From: Polystyrenella longa
GTDB taxonomy: Bacteria > Planctomycetota > Planctomycetia > Planctomycetales > Planctomycetaceae
Direction: 5' to 3'
NCBI RefSeq assembly: GCF_007750395.1
Contig: NZ_CP036281.1
Coordinates: 4,363,001 to 4,427,000 of the forward strand
DNA length: 64,000 nt
In this document: one piece after another, positions 3,723 to 64,000 of the stretch
How positions within the stretch are numbered: the stretch's first letter is position 1
Layout: each line of letters starts with the position of its first letter
Program-made: the position numbers and the translations under genes
The notes under the pieces: generated by a model
Database searches by the model: none
Seen by the model: the letters and a program-made list of their open reading frames with translations, nothing else
Told to the model about the DNA's origin: nothing

Positions 3723-6605
3723 TCAGTCACCCGTTCGGATTAACTCCAACCCATTGATCATCGTTTCGCCTTGTTCTGAAACTAGCTCAAGCAGGAAATC
3801 CTCGCCTACCGTAATTCCATCGAAACTCTTAACGATGCCTCGATTATCGCCTGCTGCCTCGGCGACGATATCAAATGAGTTCAGCACCGGTTCCCCCTGA
3901 ACTGAGATGGTTTGCACGCGTGCGCCGGATTCTCTTATTGGTAGATCGCAGAAGTAGAGACGAACGGTGTAGGTACCCGGTTTGAGTTTTTCCAGTTTGA
4001 ATTCACTCAGCCCAATGGCCGCCGAGCCATCGACCCACGGCCATTTCTCACTCGAATCGATTCGCAAACTGTGTCGGTAAGAATAGTCGACTGTTGCCGG
4101 GGAAGTATTCGCCGTAAGCTTTGGAGAAGGCTCGCCCAGACTTGGAAAGTTCAACCAGAGTGTCCCTTCTCGGGTCATTCGAGCGCCGGGAGCACCAAAG
4201 TTAATCCCTATTCGCTGGATCGATTCGGGTTCGCTTTCACCCCAAACGGCCCACTGCTCGTGCGTTTCCGGCACAGCATAGAGAGCCATGCTGGTAGGTA
4301 ATGGGTAACTGCAGGTACAGCCTTCGTAAAAGTAAGGCACGTTGAGTAACCCGTTTGCCGGGATGATACTGTTGGTACAACCCGACCGGGGACCGCTCAG
4401 GAACATTGTCCCGCTTTCGAGCGTTTTGTCGTAAAAAGCAGGGGTTCCGCTTCGCATGGTGAATAGAAAACCATAGTCGACGCCCCCGTCGCAACCGTAG
4501 TTTTTCGGAAAGTCGCGTTTCTCTTCTTTGCCCGACAGGGGATTGATACGAGTTCCCTGTTCCGGTTTCGCTGGATGCCACGCATCCTTTTGATACGGTG
4601 GCCGATACTGCGTGGGCTCCGATGCCTCTTCCTTATTTACCGTATGTTTCGCCCGGGCTTCCTGAGCCTCGGACTCTTCAAACAACCGCCCGGTATAGAC
4701 ATCGGAAAAAGAGGGTGGGAACAAAGGAAAGTCGACAGTGTAGTCCGACCGGTCCCGTTCGCTTAACCAGGATTTACCGCGCGAGACCATCACCCCTTTC
4801 TCAAAAGACGGTTGCGGAGACCGTTTGAAATTTTTAACGAGATCATTGAACCAGAGCACACCGACAGGGAACCGCACCAGTTCATCCTGGTTGAGTTCCC
4901 AGTCGGTCTGGTAATCCTGACTTCCGGGCAGAGGCCCTACCCGAGAGAATGTCGCTGTGGAGTTCGCTTTACTGGCGAGCGCTTCGTCTCCCCATTCGCT
5001 ATAGAGCGTTTGCATCAGGGTACTTCGAAACGTGTCCTCTTTAATCCCTTCTGCAAAATGCAGTTGCCCGCCATAAGGACGTACGGAGTTGACGAAAGAA
5101 TCTAAATTCAATTCGCCATTGGCACCGAGGACTCTTTCCAGATCCGATTGACTACGAGCATAAACCAGCTCGGCCCAATAGGGAGGAAGTCCTGCTTTCC
5201 CCGTCTCCAGAAGCCAAACCACTCCTCGCGAACCATAGTGACCTGCTGCTTGAAGGTGCTGGCGAAGCTTCGTAGCTTGATTGGTGTCGTTCTCCAGAAC
5301 AATCAACTTCAAGTCCGTCTTTTCCAGAAGCATGTCCAAACTGGCGGCATCCGGACTCCCGACCGATAACGCATATCCAGATGATGTATGCAGCGATTCA
5401 ATAACTCGTCGTGTTTCTGCATCCAGTGGATGTTCGTCGTCACTTTTCACAATCGAAGTCGAATTTGCTTTTGCGATCGCCAATGGAAATTGAACCGGCT
5501 TTCGGTTTTCGGTTCCATACACACACAGTTGCCCACCCTCAGTAACCACAACGGCATAATCGTTTACCGGCACTAGATTCTGAACTGGTCCCGCAATCCC
5601 ATGATCCGGTTTGTCAAAACTAATAACTTCTTCGGCGGCCGTAATCTGGCGATGCAGGTTTCCGTCGCCGGTGCCGAATTGCTGTTTGTCTTCGTGACGC
5701 TGTTGGTTAATCACTTCATCAAAACTGACTGTTCCACGCCGGACAGCCTTCGCCGATTCAGGATCGAGTGACGAAAACCAACCGCCCGGATATCGCGACA
5801 CTTTCGGCAGTGCAAATTCTATCAATTCGCCGGTCTCTTTATTCAAACGAGCCGGGTAGGCGGCGGAGCAGGGGATGACCAGCTCGTCATCATTGATTAA
5901 CAGATACCCTTGTGGGGCCAGGCCACCCATGGCGACTGTTTGGTGAGGATGGTCGCCATACAGATATCCAAGTCGATCATTCTGCCAGATCACTTCACCT
6001 GTCTCTACCGAAAGAGCCGTGGCCACAATTCCTTCAAATGGCCAGACACCCGCGGCAAGGTAGACTGTTCCATCATCGACAACAGCACCACCGCGGACTG
6101 GCCAAACGGAAGTCAGCCGTTCGTTTGCCAATAGCTTTCGGTCACTTAACGCGACCTGTTTCTTCCATTGAAGTTCGCCCGTCTGCAGACTGAGGCAGTA
6201 AAAGTAACCATCGTCCGATCCGAAGAGAACTCGATCACCCCAGAGAACCGGCGCCAGTCGATTGGGGCCGTTCGTGAAGAAGGACCATTTTTCCTGTCCA
6301 GTCTTCAGGTCATATGCTGTGACGGTATCTTCAACAGACGAGGCCAGGACGATCGTGTCCTTCTTGATCACCGGTTCGTATCGACCGTCGAACTGTAGTC
6401 GCGGATTATCAAACGCCGGATTGATCTCGGGCAACTCTCGCGACCACTGCAAATGCAGTTCGCCCTCCAGGCCTTGAACCGATACAGCGGTCCGCCCGGA
6501 GTTGTTTCGCCACGTTGGCCAGTCTTCGGAGAAGACGGAGCCCTGAAAAAGAGAAAGACTCAAAAGAACACAAAACGAAACCGTTACTCGACTCATTCCA
6601 AACAC
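3723..6605 (-). CDS. Giant secreted PQQ-type beta-propeller protein with Rossmann-like and malectin-like domains (960 aa)
   Basis: A Sec signal peptide (residues 1-26) is followed by EDWPTWRNNSGRTAV, the usual opening of planctomycete PQQ/BamB-like propellers. Residues about 30-390 carry blade motifs such as TGQEKWSF, TGELQWKK and TGEVIWQN. Residues about 400-530 are a Rossmann methyltransferase-like domain whose motif I is degenerate (SVGSPDAASL), ending with VRPYGGQL. The second propeller, long in the 1456-aa paralogue at 34023-38393, is reduced here to about 200 residues. A signature Cys743-x19-Cys763-x-Cys765 follows, then a malectin-like carbohydrate-binding domain from about 840 to the end (TYTVRLYFCDLP, GEPVLNSFDIVAEA). 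Likely exported; no enzymatic function can be assigned. It is a monocistronic gene with divergent and convergent neighbours. Confidence 0.85.
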   Translation of the reverse strand: MFGMSRVTVSFCVLLSLSLFQGSVFSEDWPTWRNNSGRTAVSVQGLEGELHLQWSRELPEINPAFDNPRLQFDGRYEPVIKKDTIVLASSVEDTVTAYDLKTGQEKWSFFTNGPNRLAPVLWGDRVLFGSDDGYFYCLSLQTGELQWKKQVALSDRKLLANERLTSVWPVRGGAVVDDGTVYLAAGVWPFEGIVATALSVETGEVIWQNDRLGYLYGDHPHQTVAMGGLAPQGYLLINDDELVIPCSAAYPARLNKETGELIEFALPKVSRYPGGWFSSLDPESAKAVRRGTVSFDEVINQQRHEDKQQFGTGDGNLHRQITAAEEVISFDKPDHGIAGPVQNLVPVNDYAVVVTEGGQLCVYGTENRKPVQFPLAIAKANSTSIVKSDDEHPLDAETRRVIESLHTSSGYALSVGSPDAASLDMLLEKTDLKLIVLENDTNQATKLRQHLQAAGHYGSRGVVWLLETGKAGLPPYWAELVYARSQSDLERVLGANGELNLDSFVNSVRPYGGQLHFAEGIKEDTFRSTLMQTLYSEWGDEALASKANSTATFSRVGPLPGSQDYQTDWELNQDELVRFPVGVLWFNDLVKNFKRSPQPSFEKGVMVSRGKSWLSERDRSDYTVDFPLFPPSFSDVYTGRLFEESEAQEARAKHTVNKEEASEPTQYRPPYQKDAWHPAKPEQGTRINPLSGKEEKRDFPKNYGCDGGVDYGFLFTMRSGTPAFYDKTLESGTMFLSGPRSGCTNSIIPANGLLNVPYFYEGCTCSYPLPTSMALYAVPETHEQWAVWGESEPESIQRIGINFGAPGARMTREGTLWLNFPSLGEPSPKLTANTSPATVDYSYRHSLRIDSSEKWPWVDGSAAIGLSEFKLEKLKPGTYTVRLYFCDLPIRESGARVQTISVQGEPVLNSFDIVAEAAGDNRGIVKSFDGITVGEDFLLELVSEQGETMINGLELIRTGD

Positions 6606-34022: not shown

Positions 34023-37000
34023 TTATTCTGTTTCGAGTTTAATTTCGATCCCGCTCAGAACGGGTTTTCGGGCACCGGTCTCTTCCAGTTCAACTTTCAA
34101 TCGGGAAGAAATGGGGATGCCGTTGAATTCCTTCACCAGCACATCGCGAGCCCCACCCGTTTCGGCCAGGATATCGAAATCACGTAGCAGGGGTTCGCCT
34201 TGAAGATTCACATTGAATCGACGGTCGCCTACCTTCACATCTTGCTCCGGTTCGGCGAAGAAGAGACGAACAGTGTATGGACGGCTGGGAACGTGACTGA
34301 CTTCGGCAACCTGTTCGAGGGAATCTTCTTCCAGTTCGATAAACAGGCGTGGAATTCCAGATTTGTCACCCTTCTTGTCGCCATCGGCTGCCACAGCCGC
34401 ACGATCGCCCGATCCCTTGATAATGAAACCGATCGCATTGCCCGGTTCCCATCCATCGCGATTGACGATTTCTTCGATCAATGTTTTCAAATCAGGAGTC
34501 CGTTCAGCCTCGCCGTGGCGAGCCGCTTCCCAAGGTTCAATCTCCCACTTCACGGACGCTTCGGTTTTGGGTCGTTTTGTGATGCTTTCCCGTTTCGTGC
34601 TGAAACTTTTAACATCATCAACCGCTTCGCTCCAGACAGTGACTTTGGTTTCCGTGTCGATGGCCTTGGTCGCGGTGAACTGAATATAGGCTGACTTAAT
34701 CTTTGCTCCCTTGGGAAGGGGCAGGGAATTGAATCGAATTCCGGCAGTATGATCCTGCTTGGAAGCTGGGTAAAAAGTCGTATTGGAAACAATCATATCG
34801 CCGTTGGGTAATTCAGCGGCGTCGTCCACCGAACTGTTAGCGGGGAAACCGAACTCCAATTGATCAATCGCGGTTGGTTTCACGAGCAGATCAATCTGAC
34901 TGGCCCCTTTGACACCCGATGAGGCAACCCATTTCAATTCCTCTCCCTGATAGCGGGAAGAGTGATCGAGGAAGTATTCGGCATCTCCTTTAACGGATAC
35001 GGTCAGCGACGGAGAGGGTCCTCCGATTTCGGGATAGTCGAGCCACAAGGTGCCTTCTTCGTCACGACGATCGCCGGGGGCACCAAAGTTGATTCCCACC
35101 GCCCGCACAAGATCACCATCGTAGGCCATGTCGTTGTGGGTCCAGATTTCAAGGTCGGGCATATGAACCATCGCCAGAGAGGTCTGGTTCTGGAATGAGC
35201 AACTACAAGTTCGCGTATAATCGGGGGCATTCAACAGCCCATCTGCGGCGATGAGGTTACTTGTGCAACCTGATTTGAAACCACCGAAATGGCCTGTCCC
35301 GCCATCGTTGGTCATGTCATAAAAGGCGGCTGAGGAAGAGCGGAAAGTCAGCATCGTCTCACAGGCAATCGGATAGTTACACCCCTTGGTTGCGCTGTAG
35401 CTCCAGACATCTTCTTTGCCAGTCAGCGGGTCCGTTCGCATGAGCGGCTTTCCGGTGATCAGTGAATAAAAACGACCTCCTGTAATCAGTTTGTCGCCAT
35501 GTAGAATCGGAGGCGTGCTGTACGAAATCGACTCATTCCAGAGAACGTCTCCCGTATCGGCATCGTATGCGATGATCTGTCGACCATTTTCATCCCGGAC
35601 AGTGTCATTGGAAGGACGAGTCGATTGAATCAGAATACGATATTCATCCGAATAACCGAGCCAGGTGCCGAAAATGTTCTCGGACGTTTTCCAGACGACA
35701 TCGCCAGTTTCAATGTCATAAGCCGTCAGCGAATACGTATCCGGATTCACTTCGCCCCGGCGGGCCAGTTGTTGTTCAATGTTAGGAGGTAATTTATCGA
35801 GTACATAAACGACGTTGCGACCAACGCAAATGGCGTTGTGAATCAAGCTATGTTTAGCAGGTACTTGCCATTTAACCTGGCCGGAATGGCGATCCATCAC
35901 TGTCAGTCCGCGACTGGCCGATTGGTCATAATCGACAAACCGGAATTTACTGCGGCGCTGATCGGCAGTATCAATCGGCAGGTTTTTACGTTGACTGTAC
36001 TCAGCAAAACCGAGTCCACCCAGCAGGTTGTTCCCAGCGATACCGATGTAACCCCAAGACTGTACTGGCTCGGACTTTTCGTCGAATTTCAGTTCAGGAA
36101 GATCGAACATGGCGACATCCTTTCCTGTGACCGCGTCGAGAACACGACACTTGTCCTTCTGGAGGATGTAGACCAGATCTTCTGTAGCGATATAGTTCGT
36201 TCCGCGGGCATTAGCTCCGGGAATATGTACCTGGTTGTATTCAGTACTCAGCGGGGTGTCTTTGTAAGTCTGATCGAAGAAGAGTCCTTCGGCCCCCGTG
36301 TCGACCAACTTGGTTTGCCACAGGACTTGGCCAGTATAAACATCGCGTGCATTAAGAACATCCATTCCCTGAATATAGAGTCTCCCCCCAATGATCTGCT
36401 CCGGCGGACCGTGACCATGTCGAGGAAGGACGTCCATATTGGAACTGCCACCGAACCACAGGAGGCCCATGGGCAATTTAACACGAGAATCGTCTGACTT
36501 GACGGTGTTTTCGATGTCGCCGTATTGATGAGTCCAGTTTCCAGCACCAGGAAGCTGCCCTGCACGGGTGACGGTGAGTGATGAACCGACGGAAGTAAAT
36601 TCACCCTTCGCCAGAGAGCCTTGCAGTTGCTGGCCTTTAAGACTGCTGAGCAGCTTCGATGAATTGTCGGGATTAATAAACCAGAGTTTGCCCCCATAAG
36701 GACGAAGGCCTTCGAAGAGGTTTTCCGCCAGTTCCGTTTCTCCCGGAATCGTAGCTTCATATCCAATTGCGGCAGGGTCGTTAATGATCGTCATACTGGA
36801 GAGGTAGACGGGCAGGGTATAATCCTGATTTAACTCTCCATCCAGAAACGCAACGGGATGAGAACCTGGCACTGCGGAGGGATCAACGATATCGAATTTC
36901 TTCCGCCACTCGGTTACTTTTTCGGTGTCCGAATCGAGGACGATCCATTTCAATTTTGATTCAGCAACGACCGCTTTTAGTAATTCACCATCACCAATCC

Positions 37001-38393
37001 CGACGAAGTATCCATAAGCTGCCTCAGGAGTGAGTTGGCGTACAATTTCTTGAGCTTCCGCTTTCGCTTCCTCGGTGAGTGGGAGTTGTTCCTGTTTAGT
37101 AGCAATTTCGGTTGCCGTCTCAGATTCATTCCCGGTGAAAACGAAAACCTGACCTTCATCGGTCGTCACAATCAATCGATCATCAGCGGCGACGAGGCGA
37201 GCGATGGTTCCGTCTAATGATAATGTCTGAATTTTTTCCGGTGCGGTTGCTTCGTCCTCAGAGAGTTGCCAAACAGTGATTTCTTTTTCACCCGCGGCGT
37301 AAAGTCGTGAGCCAGCCTGGATCATATCTTTAGTAGCATCGGCTTCGACCTTCCAGACCGTTTCTTTCGGATCGTCATAGTTATGACATTCCAGCGAATC
37401 CCCGGAATAGATGAAGGCTTTGTCACTCAAAACAGGTTGATGACCGCGTAACTCGTCACGACGACGGCCTGACCCCAGGATAAACCAGCTATATTCGTCG
37501 TCTCTCTCGTGAGCCCAGAGGGCAGAGTTGTTTGCGAAGACGTACGAACCGCCGGACTTACCGTAGTCGGCCAGATGAAAGAACTGCAACTTCCCAGTAT
37601 CCCGTTCGAGGCTCGCAGGAATTGACCGGCCTCCGGGAATAAAGAGTTGTTTATCATTTACAGCAAGATGTCCCTGCGGTGCGATACCGGCAAAGGCGGG
37701 GTAGTGGTGCGGTTGATCGATGTAGAGGGCGCTTGTGTTGTCGTTGACCCAAACGGTATCTCCCGTTTCGGCATCGAGCGCGTAAATGAACGTCCCCATA
37801 AAAGGCCAGATACTGGCGGCGAAATAGACCGTACCGTCATCAACCACTGCCGCTCCACGTGCAGGCCAAGTTGAAATGAGGCGTTCGTTCCCCAGAATTT
37901 TCCGATCCGACGGTCCGCCCCGGAACTTCCAGATTTCGTTTCCGGTGTTTACATCCAGGCAGTACAGGTATCCGTCGTCGCTGACGACATACGCTTTGCC
38001 ATCGGCACAGGCAGCTGGATAGCGAATCGGGCCGTCGGCATAAAATCGCCAGCGTTCTTCGCTCGTTTTGACATCAAGGGCGAGAACTTTGTCGGTGTCA
38101 TTAAATGACAGCAGCATCAAGCCGTTGACCACGACTGGTTCAAACTGACTGTCGTATTTCATTAAGTCATGGTTGAGAGGATCATCCCAGACAGGTTTCC
38201 GTTTGCCGAAGTTGACTGACCAGCCGGGGTACAGTTTGTCGGGCAAAGCATGCGGCGAGACTCCTGTGCGGCCTGCATCGTATCGCCACATAGGCCAGTC
38301 CTCAGCTTGGACCAAGCTGGACGAGATGCAGAAGGAGGAAAGAGCAATCAGACTGAACAGAGCCAGACGAAGGGTCAGGTTGAATTTTATCAT
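34023..38393 (-). CDS. Giant secreted PQQ-type propeller protein with Rossmann-like, DNRLRE-like and malectin-like domains (1456 aa)
   Basis: Signal peptide (about 1-30), then EDWPMWRYDAGRTGVS, the same opening as the 960-aa protein. A first propeller runs to about 430 (TSEERWRF, TGNEIWKF, TGDTVWVN). A Rossmann methyltransferase-like domain follows with GIGDGELL in the motif I place, ending LRPYGGKL. A second full propeller covers about 610-1030 (YTGQVLWQT, SGQVKWQV, TGDVVWKT, TGDVLWNE). The signature is Cys1043-x19-Cys1063-x-Cys1065. A malectin-like domain starts near 1130, is interrupted at about 1174-1371 by a DNRLRE-like domain (GIRFNSLPLPKGAKIKSAYI), and resumes with YTVRLFFAEPE. Probably acts on or binds cell-surface polysaccharide; no catalysis can be assigned. 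Confidence 0.87.
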   Translation of the reverse strand: MIKFNLTLRLALFSLIALSSFCISSSLVQAEDWPMWRYDAGRTGVSPHALPDKLYPGWSVNFGKRKPVWDDPLNHDLMKYDSQFEPVVVNGLMLLSFNDTDKVLALDVKTSEERWRFYADGPIRYPAACADGKAYVVSDDGYLYCLDVNTGNEIWKFRGGPSDRKILGNERLISTWPARGAAVVDDGTVYFAASIWPFMGTFIYALDAETGDTVWVNDNTSALYIDQPHHYPAFAGIAPQGHLAVNDKQLFIPGGRSIPASLERDTGKLQFFHLADYGKSGGSYVFANNSALWAHERDDEYSWFILGSGRRRDELRGHQPVLSDKAFIYSGDSLECHNYDDPKETVWKVEADATKDMIQAGSRLYAAGEKEITVWQLSEDEATAPEKIQTLSLDGTIARLVAADDRLIVTTDEGQVFVFTGNESETATEIATKQEQLPLTEEAKAEAQEIVRQLTPEAAYGYFVGIGDGELLKAVVAESKLKWIVLDSDTEKVTEWRKKFDIVDPSAVPGSHPVAFLDGELNQDYTLPVYLSSMTIINDPAAIGYEATIPGETELAENLFEGLRPYGGKLWFINPDNSSKLLSSLKGQQLQGSLAKGEFTSVGSSLTVTRAGQLPGAGNWTHQYGDIENTVKSDDSRVKLPMGLLWFGGSSNMDVLPRHGHGPPEQIIGGRLYIQGMDVLNARDVYTGQVLWQTKLVDTGAEGLFFDQTYKDTPLSTEYNQVHIPGANARGTNYIATEDLVYILQKDKCRVLDAVTGKDVAMFDLPELKFDEKSEPVQSWGYIGIAGNNLLGGLGFAEYSQRKNLPIDTADQRRSKFRFVDYDQSASRGLTVMDRHSGQVKWQVPAKHSLIHNAICVGRNVVYVLDKLPPNIEQQLARRGEVNPDTYSLTAYDIETGDVVWKTSENIFGTWLGYSDEYRILIQSTRPSNDTVRDENGRQIIAYDADTGDVLWNESISYSTPPILHGDKLITGGRFYSLITGKPLMRTDPLTGKEDVWSYSATKGCNYPIACETMLTFRSSSAAFYDMTNDGGTGHFGGFKSGCTSNLIAADGLLNAPDYTRTCSCSFQNQTSLAMVHMPDLEIWTHNDMAYDGDLVRAVGINFGAPGDRRDEEGTLWLDYPEIGGPSPSLTVSVKGDAEYFLDHSSRYQGEELKWVASSGVKGASQIDLLVKPTAIDQLEFGFPANSSVDDAAELPNGDMIVSNTTFYPASKQDHTAGIRFNSLPLPKGAKIKSAYIQFTATKAIDTETKVTVWSEAVDDVKSFSTKRESITKRPKTEASVKWEIEPWEAARHGEAERTPDLKTLIEEIVNRDGWEPGNAIGFIIKGSGDRAAVAADGDKKGDKSGIPRLFIELEEDSLEQVAEVSHVPSRPYTVRLFFAEPEQDVKVGDRRFNVNLQGEPLLRDFDILAETGGARDVLVKEFNGIPISSRLKVELEETGARKPVLSGIEIKLETE

Positions 38394-62156: not shown

Positions 62157-64000
62157 TTACTTTTCCAGAGCGGTAACTTGTTTCACTGGATAGAAGGCCA
62201 TCGACGTCTGCAAGGCATGTTCGCAGAAACAACCGGAACCCGTTTCCGGAGCGAGCAGCACACCCCCCGACGGAATCAGACTCAACCAGCAACCACTGCG
62301 AACCCCCATGAACTGGGTCCGTTCCTGGGTTTCCAGATCGTACATCCCGTGGTACTCAAAACGGCGGAACAGCATGTTGTTGGAACCGGTCATCACACCA
62401 CATCCATGCCAATCAAAATCGTCCGTCTCCAACACGTTGCCCGTGCGTAGTTCCACCGTCTGCTTGTTGTGATAGAGTTTGTCTCCAATCAGCACCGGGT
62501 GGGCAAGATGACCACTGTGATGTTTTTTCTTAGCTTCTTCAGAGTGTTGCCACAACTCGTATCCATTTCGAGCATCGAAGGCATAGGTGTGGAAACTCTT
62601 GTTTTGATCAGTTCCCGTTACCAGCAATGTATCGTTCGTATGACTGAGATAAGTCATGAATTCACATTTACTGAAGTCGTAACTTTTCTCCCATTTGATT
62701 TCACCCGTCTCTAAATCGAGTGCGACGAGGTACTGGTGTTGTTGAACCTGATCCAGTAACCGACTTACTTGTTCATCAATTGCAGCCGGATTACGGCTTT
62801 CGACAAAATAGACGTTCTCTCCATCGATCGTGATCGTGGAGTTCATGATTTTACCATCCTCATAAGTCCACCGTTTCTCTCCGGTCGTGGCATCGCGAGC
62901 AGTGAAGTTATCGCTGGTGACGCGAGAGACCGAGGCGGCTTCGTAGTCTTCAAACCACTCGCCATTATCACCCATGTATTGTGCACCGCGGCTAGTGGCC
63001 GTACCGAGTAAGAGATTATTCACCACACCCAGGTAACCCCAGTTGTAGGCAACATCCCCTTCCTTCCGCTCCACCTGATACGTCGCAGTCAATTCGCCCG
63101 TTTGTCCGTCGAACATGAAACAGTCGGAATCAACGGCGAGATACAGGTAATCATCCGTCGCCACCATGTTTGAACCATCACGGGGCATGTTTGCACGCCG
63201 CATCGTAGGAATCTGTTTCGTCCAGAGAATCGTCCCGTTATAAGCATCCATTCCAAACAGAGTCCGGTCGCCTTGAACGTACATTCTGCCGTTTGCAGAA
63301 ACGGGGGCGGGGTTTCGTCCCCCCCGGTCAGGCATTGGACGCGATCCCGGACGTCCCCACCACAGAACAGACATCTTACCACCAATTACACCATCTTTAC
63401 TGCAGGACGAATTATCCGGGTGCCCATACATGTGGGTCCATTCGCCACTCTCCGGCAATTTGCCTCGGGTATAGGAAGCGAGCAAAACGTCCGATTCCGC
63501 CGTTGCAACCTGTCCCTGCTCAGCAGGAAGATTTCCCAACCATTCATTGAACTTGGTTAGTTGCGAGGCACGCTCCTCGTCTGACTCTCCCGATTGCAAC
63601 TGTCCCAGACAGACTGCACCTCCGGCAGGTCGCAAGATTCGGAAGATTTCACTCGACCATTCCGGTAAAGAGACTGATTCAAACGCTGATTCCGAGATCA
63701 CCAGATTGGCAAACCAAGGTCCGAATGGAAGTTGTTCCTGTTCCTGATGATGAACCGTTACGCGTGCACCGTAGACGCCAGCGTCATCGAACATACGTCG
63801 AATCGCCTGGACCTTGTCCATGTCTTGTTCGACGACAACGACATGTAAATCAGATTGATTGATCAACTCAGCGATTAACCGACCCGTTCCGGCGCCGAGT
63901 ACAACAGCATATCCCTTATGTGTCTGGATCGTCTTCAGCATCTCCGCAGCTGCGTTTTGATAGACAGGGGTAAGTTCATCCGTTTCGAACAAATCGACCT
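62157..64000 (-). CDS. Third giant PQQ-type propeller protein, 5' part beyond the window
   Basis: The frame stays open to the right edge, and the two paralogues carry ~370-400 residues ahead of this point, so this is a partial gene; the TTG at 63992 is not the true start. About 611 residues are visible. They begin with a methyltransferase-like Rossmann domain with an intact motif I (VVLGAGTGRLIAEL), acidic strand-2 end (VVVVEQDMDKV) and closing LRPAGGAV. Then GEWTHMYGHPDNSSC, a PQQ propeller (YNGTILWTKQ, TGELTATY, TGEKRWTY, TGEIKWEK), and the signature C-x19-C-x-C (GC...GCFCEH) shortly before the C-terminus. There is no malectin-like domain. Confidence 0.85.
   Translation of the reverse strand, partial: VDLFETDELTPVYQNAAAEMLKTIQTHKGYAVVLGAGTGRLIAELINQSDLHVVVVEQDMDKVQAIRRMFDDAGVYGARVTVHHQEQEQLPFGPWFANLVISESAFESVSLPEWSSEIFRILRPAGGAVCLGQLQSGESDEERASQLTKFNEWLGNLPAEQGQVATAESDVLLASYTRGKLPESGEWTHMYGHPDNSSCSKDGVIGGKMSVLWWGRPGSRPMPDRGGRNPAPVSANGRMYVQGDRTLFGMDAYNGTILWTKQIPTMRRANMPRDGSNMVATDDYLYLAVDSDCFMFDGQTGELTATYQVERKEGDVAYNWGYLGVVNNLLLGTATSRGAQYMGDNGEWFEDYEAASVSRVTSDNFTARDATTGEKRWTYEDGKIMNSTITIDGENVYFVESRNPAAIDEQVSRLLDQVQQHQYLVALDLETGEIKWEKSYDFSKCEFMTYLSHTNDTLLVTGTDQNKSFHTYAFDARNGYELWQHSEEAKKKHHSGHLAHPVLIGDKLYHNKQTVELRTGNVLETDDFDWHGCGVMTGSNNMLFRRFEYHGMYDLETQERTQFMGVRSGCWLSLIPSGGVLLAPETGSGCFCEHALQTSMAFYPVKQVTALEK

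Follow-up and report, generated by a model that had tools for sequence, protein, structure and literature searches.

A four-cysteine module in giant exported propeller proteins of planctomycetes and its link to a small operon with a possible role in metal-sulfur delivery

What do three cysteines at constant spacing do in giant exported proteins whose sequences have otherwise diverged? The question is raised by a 64,000-nucleotide stretch of the Polystyrenella longa genome (hereafter the window; G000:C1:4363001-4427000, where genome G000 consists of one contig, C1, of 6.1 Mb), which carries three such genes, here called A, B and C. Each planctomycete or relative encodes several proteins of this kind, none of them with a known role. 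A preliminary description of the window noted the signature C-x19-C-x-C, took it to close a propeller domain and suggested either a metal site or a fixed disulfide plus a free thiol at the functional heart of the family. We followed the signature through the window proteins, their relatives and a sample of planctomycetotal genomes, and find that it is part of a four-cysteine module whose occurrence is linked to one small operon, which makes an orphan family a testable system. We consider it quite possible, and propose tentatively, that the four cysteines of the second propeller belong to an exported enzyme, probably one associated with glycans, in which they form a thiolate site for a metal or metal-sulfur group, and that the dedicated operon makes and delivers this group.

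A fourth constant cysteine in the second propeller

As the preliminary description had it, all three window proteins carry C-x19-C-x-C (A C743/C763/C765; B C1043/C1063/C1065; C C570/C590/C592 when counted from the window edge, which becomes 568/588/590 when counted from TTG). These are the only three among the 103 open reading frames (ORFs) of at least 120 residues in the window to do so. When the cysteines of each protein are placed at random within it, the spacing arises with a frequency of 0.0004–0.00185. A fourth family protein is encoded outside the window (G000:C1, about 4177161-4181102, plus strand), and the distances (20,2) are the sole cysteine-triplet spacing within 80 residues that is common to the four family proteins of this genome. 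Their alignment shows that the triplet is real but incomplete as a signature: a fourth constant cysteine, overlooked at first, stands 37–38 residues upstream (A C705, B C1005, C C533), and the protein outside the window likewise has all four. The full module reads C1-x36/37-C2-x19-C3-x-C4, where C1–C4 number the cysteines from N- to C-terminus. The suggestion of a fixed disulfide plus a free thiol was built on three cysteines; four cysteines make either one four-thiolate site or two pairs. The three genes have the following features, for which the nucleotide positions of the cysteine codons are derived from residue numbers.

3723..6605, minus strand: gene A, 960 residues, exported; propeller 1, methyltransferase-like remnant, shortened propeller 2, four-cysteine module and malectin domain
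4236..4538, minus strand: cysteine module of A (C705 at 4491-4493, C743 at 4377-4379, C763 at 4317-4319, C765 at 4311-4313)
3774..3989, minus strand: malectin domain of A (PF11721, 39.7 bits, cut-off 23)
34023..38393, minus strand: gene B, 1456 residues; propeller 1, methyltransferase-like domain, propeller 2, cysteine module and malectin domain
37125..38306, minus strand: propeller 1 of B (residues 30-423), the model of which matches BamB, YxaL and Rv3035, and also 8-bladed designed proteins
35160..36542, minus strand: propeller 2 of B (residues 618-1078), which includes the cysteine module; matches the same folds with Z up to 24.8
35124..35426, minus strand: cysteine module of B (C1005 at 35379-35381, C1043 at 35265-35267, C1063 at 35205-35207, C1065 at 35199-35201)
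34071..34280, minus strand: malectin domain of B (PF11721, 31 bits, cut-off 23)
62157..63998, minus strand: gene C, second half of a split pair; methyltransferase-like domain, propeller 2 and cysteine module; 778 residues in total, extending past the window end
63621..63899, minus strand: methyltransferase-like domain of C (residues 34-126; PF13649, 34.4 bits, cut-off 27)
62160..62441, minus strand: cysteine module of C (codons at 62400-62402, 62289-62291, 62229-62231 and 62223-62225)

The fold of B was assigned from an AlphaFold2 (AF2) model of residues 28–1140 (mean pLDDT 88.2, pTM 0.90), in which model residues 3–396 form a complete propeller (Z 34.0 to Rv3035 and 26–31 to BamB, YxaL and 8-bladed designs), and from a model of propeller 2 alone (pLDDT 86.0, pTM 0.88). 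Propeller 2 is a second full propeller (model residues 48–508), with Z-scores of 24.8 to Rv3035, 24.7 to YxaL and 22.8 to BamB. Both propellers align over their full length with 8-bladed PDB entries and are thereby assigned to the PQQ-like 8-bladed propeller fold. Foldseek ranks tetrathionate hydrolase chains first among PDB entries, both with the whole model and with propeller 2 by itself, and the structure matches of propeller 2 are mostly generic propellers. The four cysteines (model residues 435, 473, 493 and 495) are predicted to lie in loops of the last blades of propeller 2, so that the earlier wording, by which the signature closes the propeller, would hold roughly for full-length members. 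The module itself belongs to no Pfam or NCBIfam family above cut-off, whether scanned against Pfam as a separate piece or against both collections within whole proteins, and a PDB sequence search with it gave chance-level matches only (E 0.1).

The N termini are signal-peptide-like, with no twin-arginine motif evident by eye. At the other end, 47 of the 57 listed C-terminal tails were scanned; 34 of them match malectin (E 0.001), the domain that scores above its cut-off in A and B, and four match CBM96, which is our pointer to glycans. A family-derived profile detects the methyltransferase-like domain in most members, while the corresponding Pfam domain exceeds its cut-off in C and has no match in A or B. 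Motif I for S-adenosylmethionine (SAM), a GxGxG-like sequence, is by eye not conserved across 53 aligned rows; an exported protein thus has, between its two propellers, a methyltransferase-like domain whose SAM motif is degenerate, in a place where SAM is unexpected. Propeller 1 has a cysteine of its own, the fifth of the family (B C145, within DDGxLYCL), which is found in 51 of 53 aligned proteins.

Conservation across relatives and domain orders

An unbiased test of conservation is provided by 80 loci that we retrieved with a profile of the N-terminal blade alone, blind to the cysteines, from Planctomycetota, Verrucomicrobiota, Hydrogenedentota, Omnitrophota, Lentisphaerae, Acidobacteriota and Bacteroidia/Puteibacter. 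The exact C-x19-C-x-C is present in 63 of the 80 ORFs. Fifteen of the other 17 are cut off by a contig end, one (L051) is broken by masked bases and one (L074) has a TGA codon at C1. C1 was found in 60 of 60 ORFs checked by script; three more (L059, L069, L094) were excluded for unknown bases, and C1 is visible in them by eye. The invariance of C2–C4 in alignments A3 and A5 and in the set of segments comprising propeller 2 and the cysteine module is by construction, as these were picked for the motif. Over all loci, with diverged relatives added, 115 of 123 distinct modules have all four cysteines, 109 with x19 and six with x17; the remaining eight comprise four without C3 and C4, L074, and three that are truncated or masked. 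A further six permuted-type modules, described below, carry all four cysteines without exception (6/6). Most other cysteine columns of the alignment are free to vary, unlike C1–C4.

Two claims of the preliminary description hold in part. The spacing is exact in the window proteins, but it does not hold throughout the family: x17 takes its place in most permuted relatives, and paralogues of one genome (G007) lack C3 and C4. Likewise, the conservation on which the description had staked its case holds widely, but fails in this one small subfamily, from which C3 and C4 are gone.

The TGA codon of L074 (5246-5251, plus strand), from an uncultured Gimesia metagenome-assembled genome, is in frame and exactly at C1, and the module is otherwise intact downstream. 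It could be a selenocysteine, an error or a pseudogene. Selenocysteine at C1 was dropped as a general candidate: the case is single, and all other stops within the matched stretches are terminal or masked-base artefacts.

The commonest domain order is propeller 1, methyltransferase-like domain, propeller 2 and cysteine module, usually followed by malectin. In the split order, propeller 1 is encoded separately from the remaining three; gene C is the second half of such a pair (L016 658-4476), and the 467-residue propeller 1 gene adjoins it upstream, outside the window. Gene C also has genes for an FtsX-type permease and a LolD-like ATPase upstream of it, so that the order is permease, ATPase, propeller 1, and methyltransferase-like domain with propeller 2 and cysteine module, an order shared by the very diverged loci L191–L193. 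In a third, permuted order, propeller 1 follows the cysteine module (L071, L080, L137, L143, L145, L147, L148). A circular permutation inside one propeller was considered for these and dropped, because the N-terminal part is modelled as a complete propeller; the permutation is instead one of whole domains. A-type proteins, among them gene A, have shortened propeller 2 together with the module to 287–311 residues (15 of 65 rows, versus 461–678 in the rest) and keep all four cysteines despite the loss of roughly 200 residues. The cysteines survive propeller shortening, gene splitting and domain permutation, and the extracytoplasmic partners encoded by the operon also have constant cysteines, which bears out the suggestion that the module is the functional heart of the family.

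An operon linked to the module

The associated operon encodes an exported protein that we call C...CxC, a Lol/FtsX-like permease, an ATPase, a tandem ModA, ModB, ModC, and MoaD-like and MoeB-like proteins. The C...CxC protein and the ATP-binding cassette (ABC) pair were found by clustering the ORFs that flank propeller loci. All 41 distinct C...CxC proteins, many of them closely related, have C-x-PV(F/Y) directly behind a signal-like segment and, close to the end, CxC-x-(V/I)K; they belong to no Pfam or NCBIfam family above cut-off, and neither they nor the cysteine module have a significant PDB sequence match. The permease, paired with a LolD-like ATPase, falls into the FtsX/LolCE type; 22 of 24 sequences have CxC in the outer domain, a count made in part by a loose pattern, and the other two are fragments of 90 and 156 residues. 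ModA consists of two binding domains in tandem. In an alignment of 17 of the 21 listed sequences, two cysteines of the second domain are invariant (17/17 rows) and one of the first domain is near-constant (15/17 rows), and the ModA of locus L163 passes TIGR01256 (116.3 versus 62.5 bits). The MoeB-like protein is a member of the ThiF family (3.6e-57), and the MoaD-like protein is ThiS-like and ends in -GG in all seven distinct proteins examined.

We determined the co-occurrence of module and operon in 393 planctomycetotal genomes of completeness 90 or more. The canonical cysteine module is present in 62 genomes and the C...CxC protein in 54; 47 have both. Tandem ModA, counted from full-length matches (E at most 2.2e-133), occurs in 56 genomes spanning 17 families. 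Of these, 53 also hold the canonical module and the other three (G081, G102, G377) hold permuted-type modules, so that a cysteine-bearing propeller accompanies tandem ModA in 56 of 56 cases; permuted-type modules were found in 0 of 12 same-family genomes without the system. Two controls were included: the module occurs in 6 of 33 genomes with single-domain ModA (p 0.42) and in 16 of 74 with aldehyde ferredoxin oxidoreductase (AFOR_C; p 0.09).

The neighbourhoods agree with this link. Around the C...CxC gene, at 21 loci (one from the source genome and 20 taken from the match list blind to neighbours), we counted ModA, ModB and ModC 14 times each, a propeller 13 times, MoeB-like, permease and LolD-like genes nine times each, and MoaD-like genes seven times. 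In the source genome, C...CxC, permease, ATPase and MoaD-like genes form one run (L159; G000:C1, about 6056300-6060300), L208 holds tandem ModA (G000:C1:2856131-2857543) together with a ModB gene, and L209 holds a MoeB-like gene that shares 78% identity with its counterpart at L163. In the Verrucomicrobiota locus L081, two propeller ORFs stand beside ModA, ModB, ModC, MoeB-like and permease genes. Among 18 diverged or remaining propeller loci (17 from 15 genomes without a C...CxC profile match, plus L210), ModA is adjacent in eight; L191–L195 and L197 have ModA, ModB, ModC, MoaD-like, MoeB-like, permease and ATPase genes and no profile-recognised C...CxC gene. Seven of those eight loci encode an exported protein with an N-terminal cysteine and CEC (7/7 diverged versions), which is only marginally like the C...CxC profile (best E 2.5e-6 among five scored).

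Two other neighbours were seen in the source genome: the MoeB-like gene comes directly after an SCO1 gene (L209 6798-8411), and a DUF420 gene immediately follows the C...CxC operon (L159 8316-12977). A copper-oxidase link was considered on their account and dropped, as neither recurs in the other loci examined.

Metal delivery and its rivals

Constant cysteines in four exported or membrane proteins, combined with a sulfur-carrier pair and an oxyanion-type importer, are in our view best explained by delivery of a thiolate-bound group. The ModABC-like importer, with two invariant cysteines in its binding protein, would take up an oxyanion or a soft metal; the MoeB-like enzyme and the MoaD-like carrier with its -GG end would supply activated sulfur; the Lol/FtsX-type ABC exporter with its outer-domain CxC would move the product out; and the membrane-near exported C...CxC protein would hand the group to the propeller. 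The proteins look Sec-exported, so a cytoplasmic cofactor would need separate export, which would give the ABC exporter its role. The data show the cysteines and their conservation, the domain orders, the neighbourhoods and the co-occurrence across genomes; that the site binds a metal and which one, which way each transporter works and that the propeller is an enzyme we infer. Molybdenum or tungsten is our best guess for the metal, taken from the sequence family of ModA. A bolder version has secreted double-propeller enzymes use a pterin-free Mo/W (or other soft-metal) sulfur cofactor, built in the cytoplasm by MoaD/MoeB, exported by the Lol-like pair and inserted outside the cell into the four-cysteine site by C...CxC as a chaperone; in this full form we think the proposal unlikely. 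Export of a metal-sulfur group and its insertion outside the cell would, if true, mean that extracytoplasmic cofactors can be assembled by a route of a new kind. NosDFYL-type assembly of extracytoplasmic metal sites combines an ABC exporter, a thiol-bearing helper and an exported metal-site target; the present operon would resemble it in outline, with different components.

Several observations weigh against metal delivery. ModB (143.1 against a cut-off of 182.6), ModC (167.4 against 285.05), the MoeB-like protein (161.9 against 376.55 for TIGR02355) and the MoaD-like protein all score below the NCBIfam equivalog cut-offs, so that the cargo is not fixed. Among the module genomes, tandem ModA is missing in 9 of 62 and a C...CxC profile match in 15 of 62, and since the sampled genomes are related, the p-values overstate independence and are descriptive only. 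The retrieved stretches of the 80 N-terminal-blade loci include a C...CxC gene in 13 cases and ModA in one, a sparseness to be expected if many paralogues share one operon. Ten-residue blocks of the longer model have pLDDT values of 79 at C1, 67 at C2 and 70 at C3/C4, the latter two being low. Finally, the four G007 paralogues (L127, L140, L144, L146) keep C1 and C2 and lack C3 and C4 together, a pattern more in keeping with two separate pairs than with a single four-thiolate site.

Two pairs would suit a thiol-disulfide or persulfide relay, in which the CxC motifs of propeller, permease and C...CxC protein hand on electrons or sulfur in place of metal, MoaD/MoeB are the source of the sulfur, and thiols or sulfur compounds are what the propeller acts on. 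The G007 paralogues, in which C1/C2 and C3/C4 behave as pairs, the CxC of several exported partners, the sulfur-carrier pair within the operon and the top Foldseek match to tetrathionate hydrolase all speak for such a relay. That match is generic, however, at 11–14% identity with BamB and dehydrogenases close behind, and the relay has no need of the ModABC-like importer, the tightest-linked component of all; we rate it as somewhat improbable. Should metal delivery prove wrong, a four-cysteine relay with CxC partners would still be an undescribed exported thiol system. The pairs could also be structural disulfides, two of which would rivet the last blades of propeller 2, the operon link then reflecting some other property of the family. 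Four cysteines can make two pairs, C3 and C4 are lost together where C1 and C2 are retained, and N termini that resemble signal peptides and show no evident twin-arginine motif are consistent with this. Against it, A-type proteins retain the cysteines although much of propeller 2 is gone, most other cysteine columns vary, and the partner proteins also have constant CxC, an arrangement that is unusual as a structural disulfide. We hold structural disulfides to be a doubtful explanation.

MoaD/MoeB and tungstate transporters occur near pterin molybdo- and tungsto-enzymes, and the ModABC, MoaD and MoeB genes might serve an ordinary enzyme of this kind, such as aldehyde ferredoxin oxidoreductase, with the propellers close by through chance. 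We regard this as very improbable. The oxidoreductase, present in 74 of the 393 genomes, is absent from the source genome and shows no significant co-occurrence with the module, on which ground it was rejected as the owner of these genes, and tandem ModA is never found without a cysteine-bearing propeller in the sample.

Apart from the cysteine module and the C...CxC protein, all components come from known superfamilies. The combination of operon and propeller, the four-cysteine site and the genome-level linkage were not found described in searches of open-licence literature. Molybdenum use is general in planctomycetes, and the available text describing it makes no mention of a tandem-ModA/C...CxC operon (PMC6147048). 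The nuclear-pore-like propellers of Gemmata were considered as relatives and set aside as apparently another family, the main text making no mention of PQQ or cysteine (PMC5287468). We take the system to be new as a combination; its function is a proposal.

Comparison with known systems places each part. Both propellers align over their full length with the 8-bladed PQQ-like propellers of BamB, YxaL and Rv3035 (Z 26–34 for propeller 1 and 21–25 for propeller 2), whereas two propellers per chain, the methyltransferase-like domain between them and the four-cysteine module set the family apart from the BamB type, for which A and B score 53 and 45 bits against the 285.2 of TIGR03300. PQQ-dependent alcohol dehydrogenases are alike in their PQQ-type blades (partial matches to Pfam PF01011) and in export; A and B score 22.6 and 45.5 against the 480.05 of TIGR03075, and the cysteine arrangement differs, the dehydrogenases having a vicinal disulfide. 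The operon permease and ATPase belong to the LolCDE/FtsX-MacB superfamily, but lie far under the equivalog cut-offs (69 versus 362 for lolCE, 178 versus 308 for LolD) and have the constant CxC in the outer domain. The ModABC molybdate importer is resembled in a ModA that passes its family model, a ModB-type permease and a ModC-like ATPase, and differs in that the operon's binding protein is a two-domain tandem with two invariant cysteines in the second domain. The MoaD/MoeB pair, finally, is matched by a ThiS-family protein with a GG end and a ThiF-family partner, which score under the equivalog cut-offs and are encoded in one gene run with export components.

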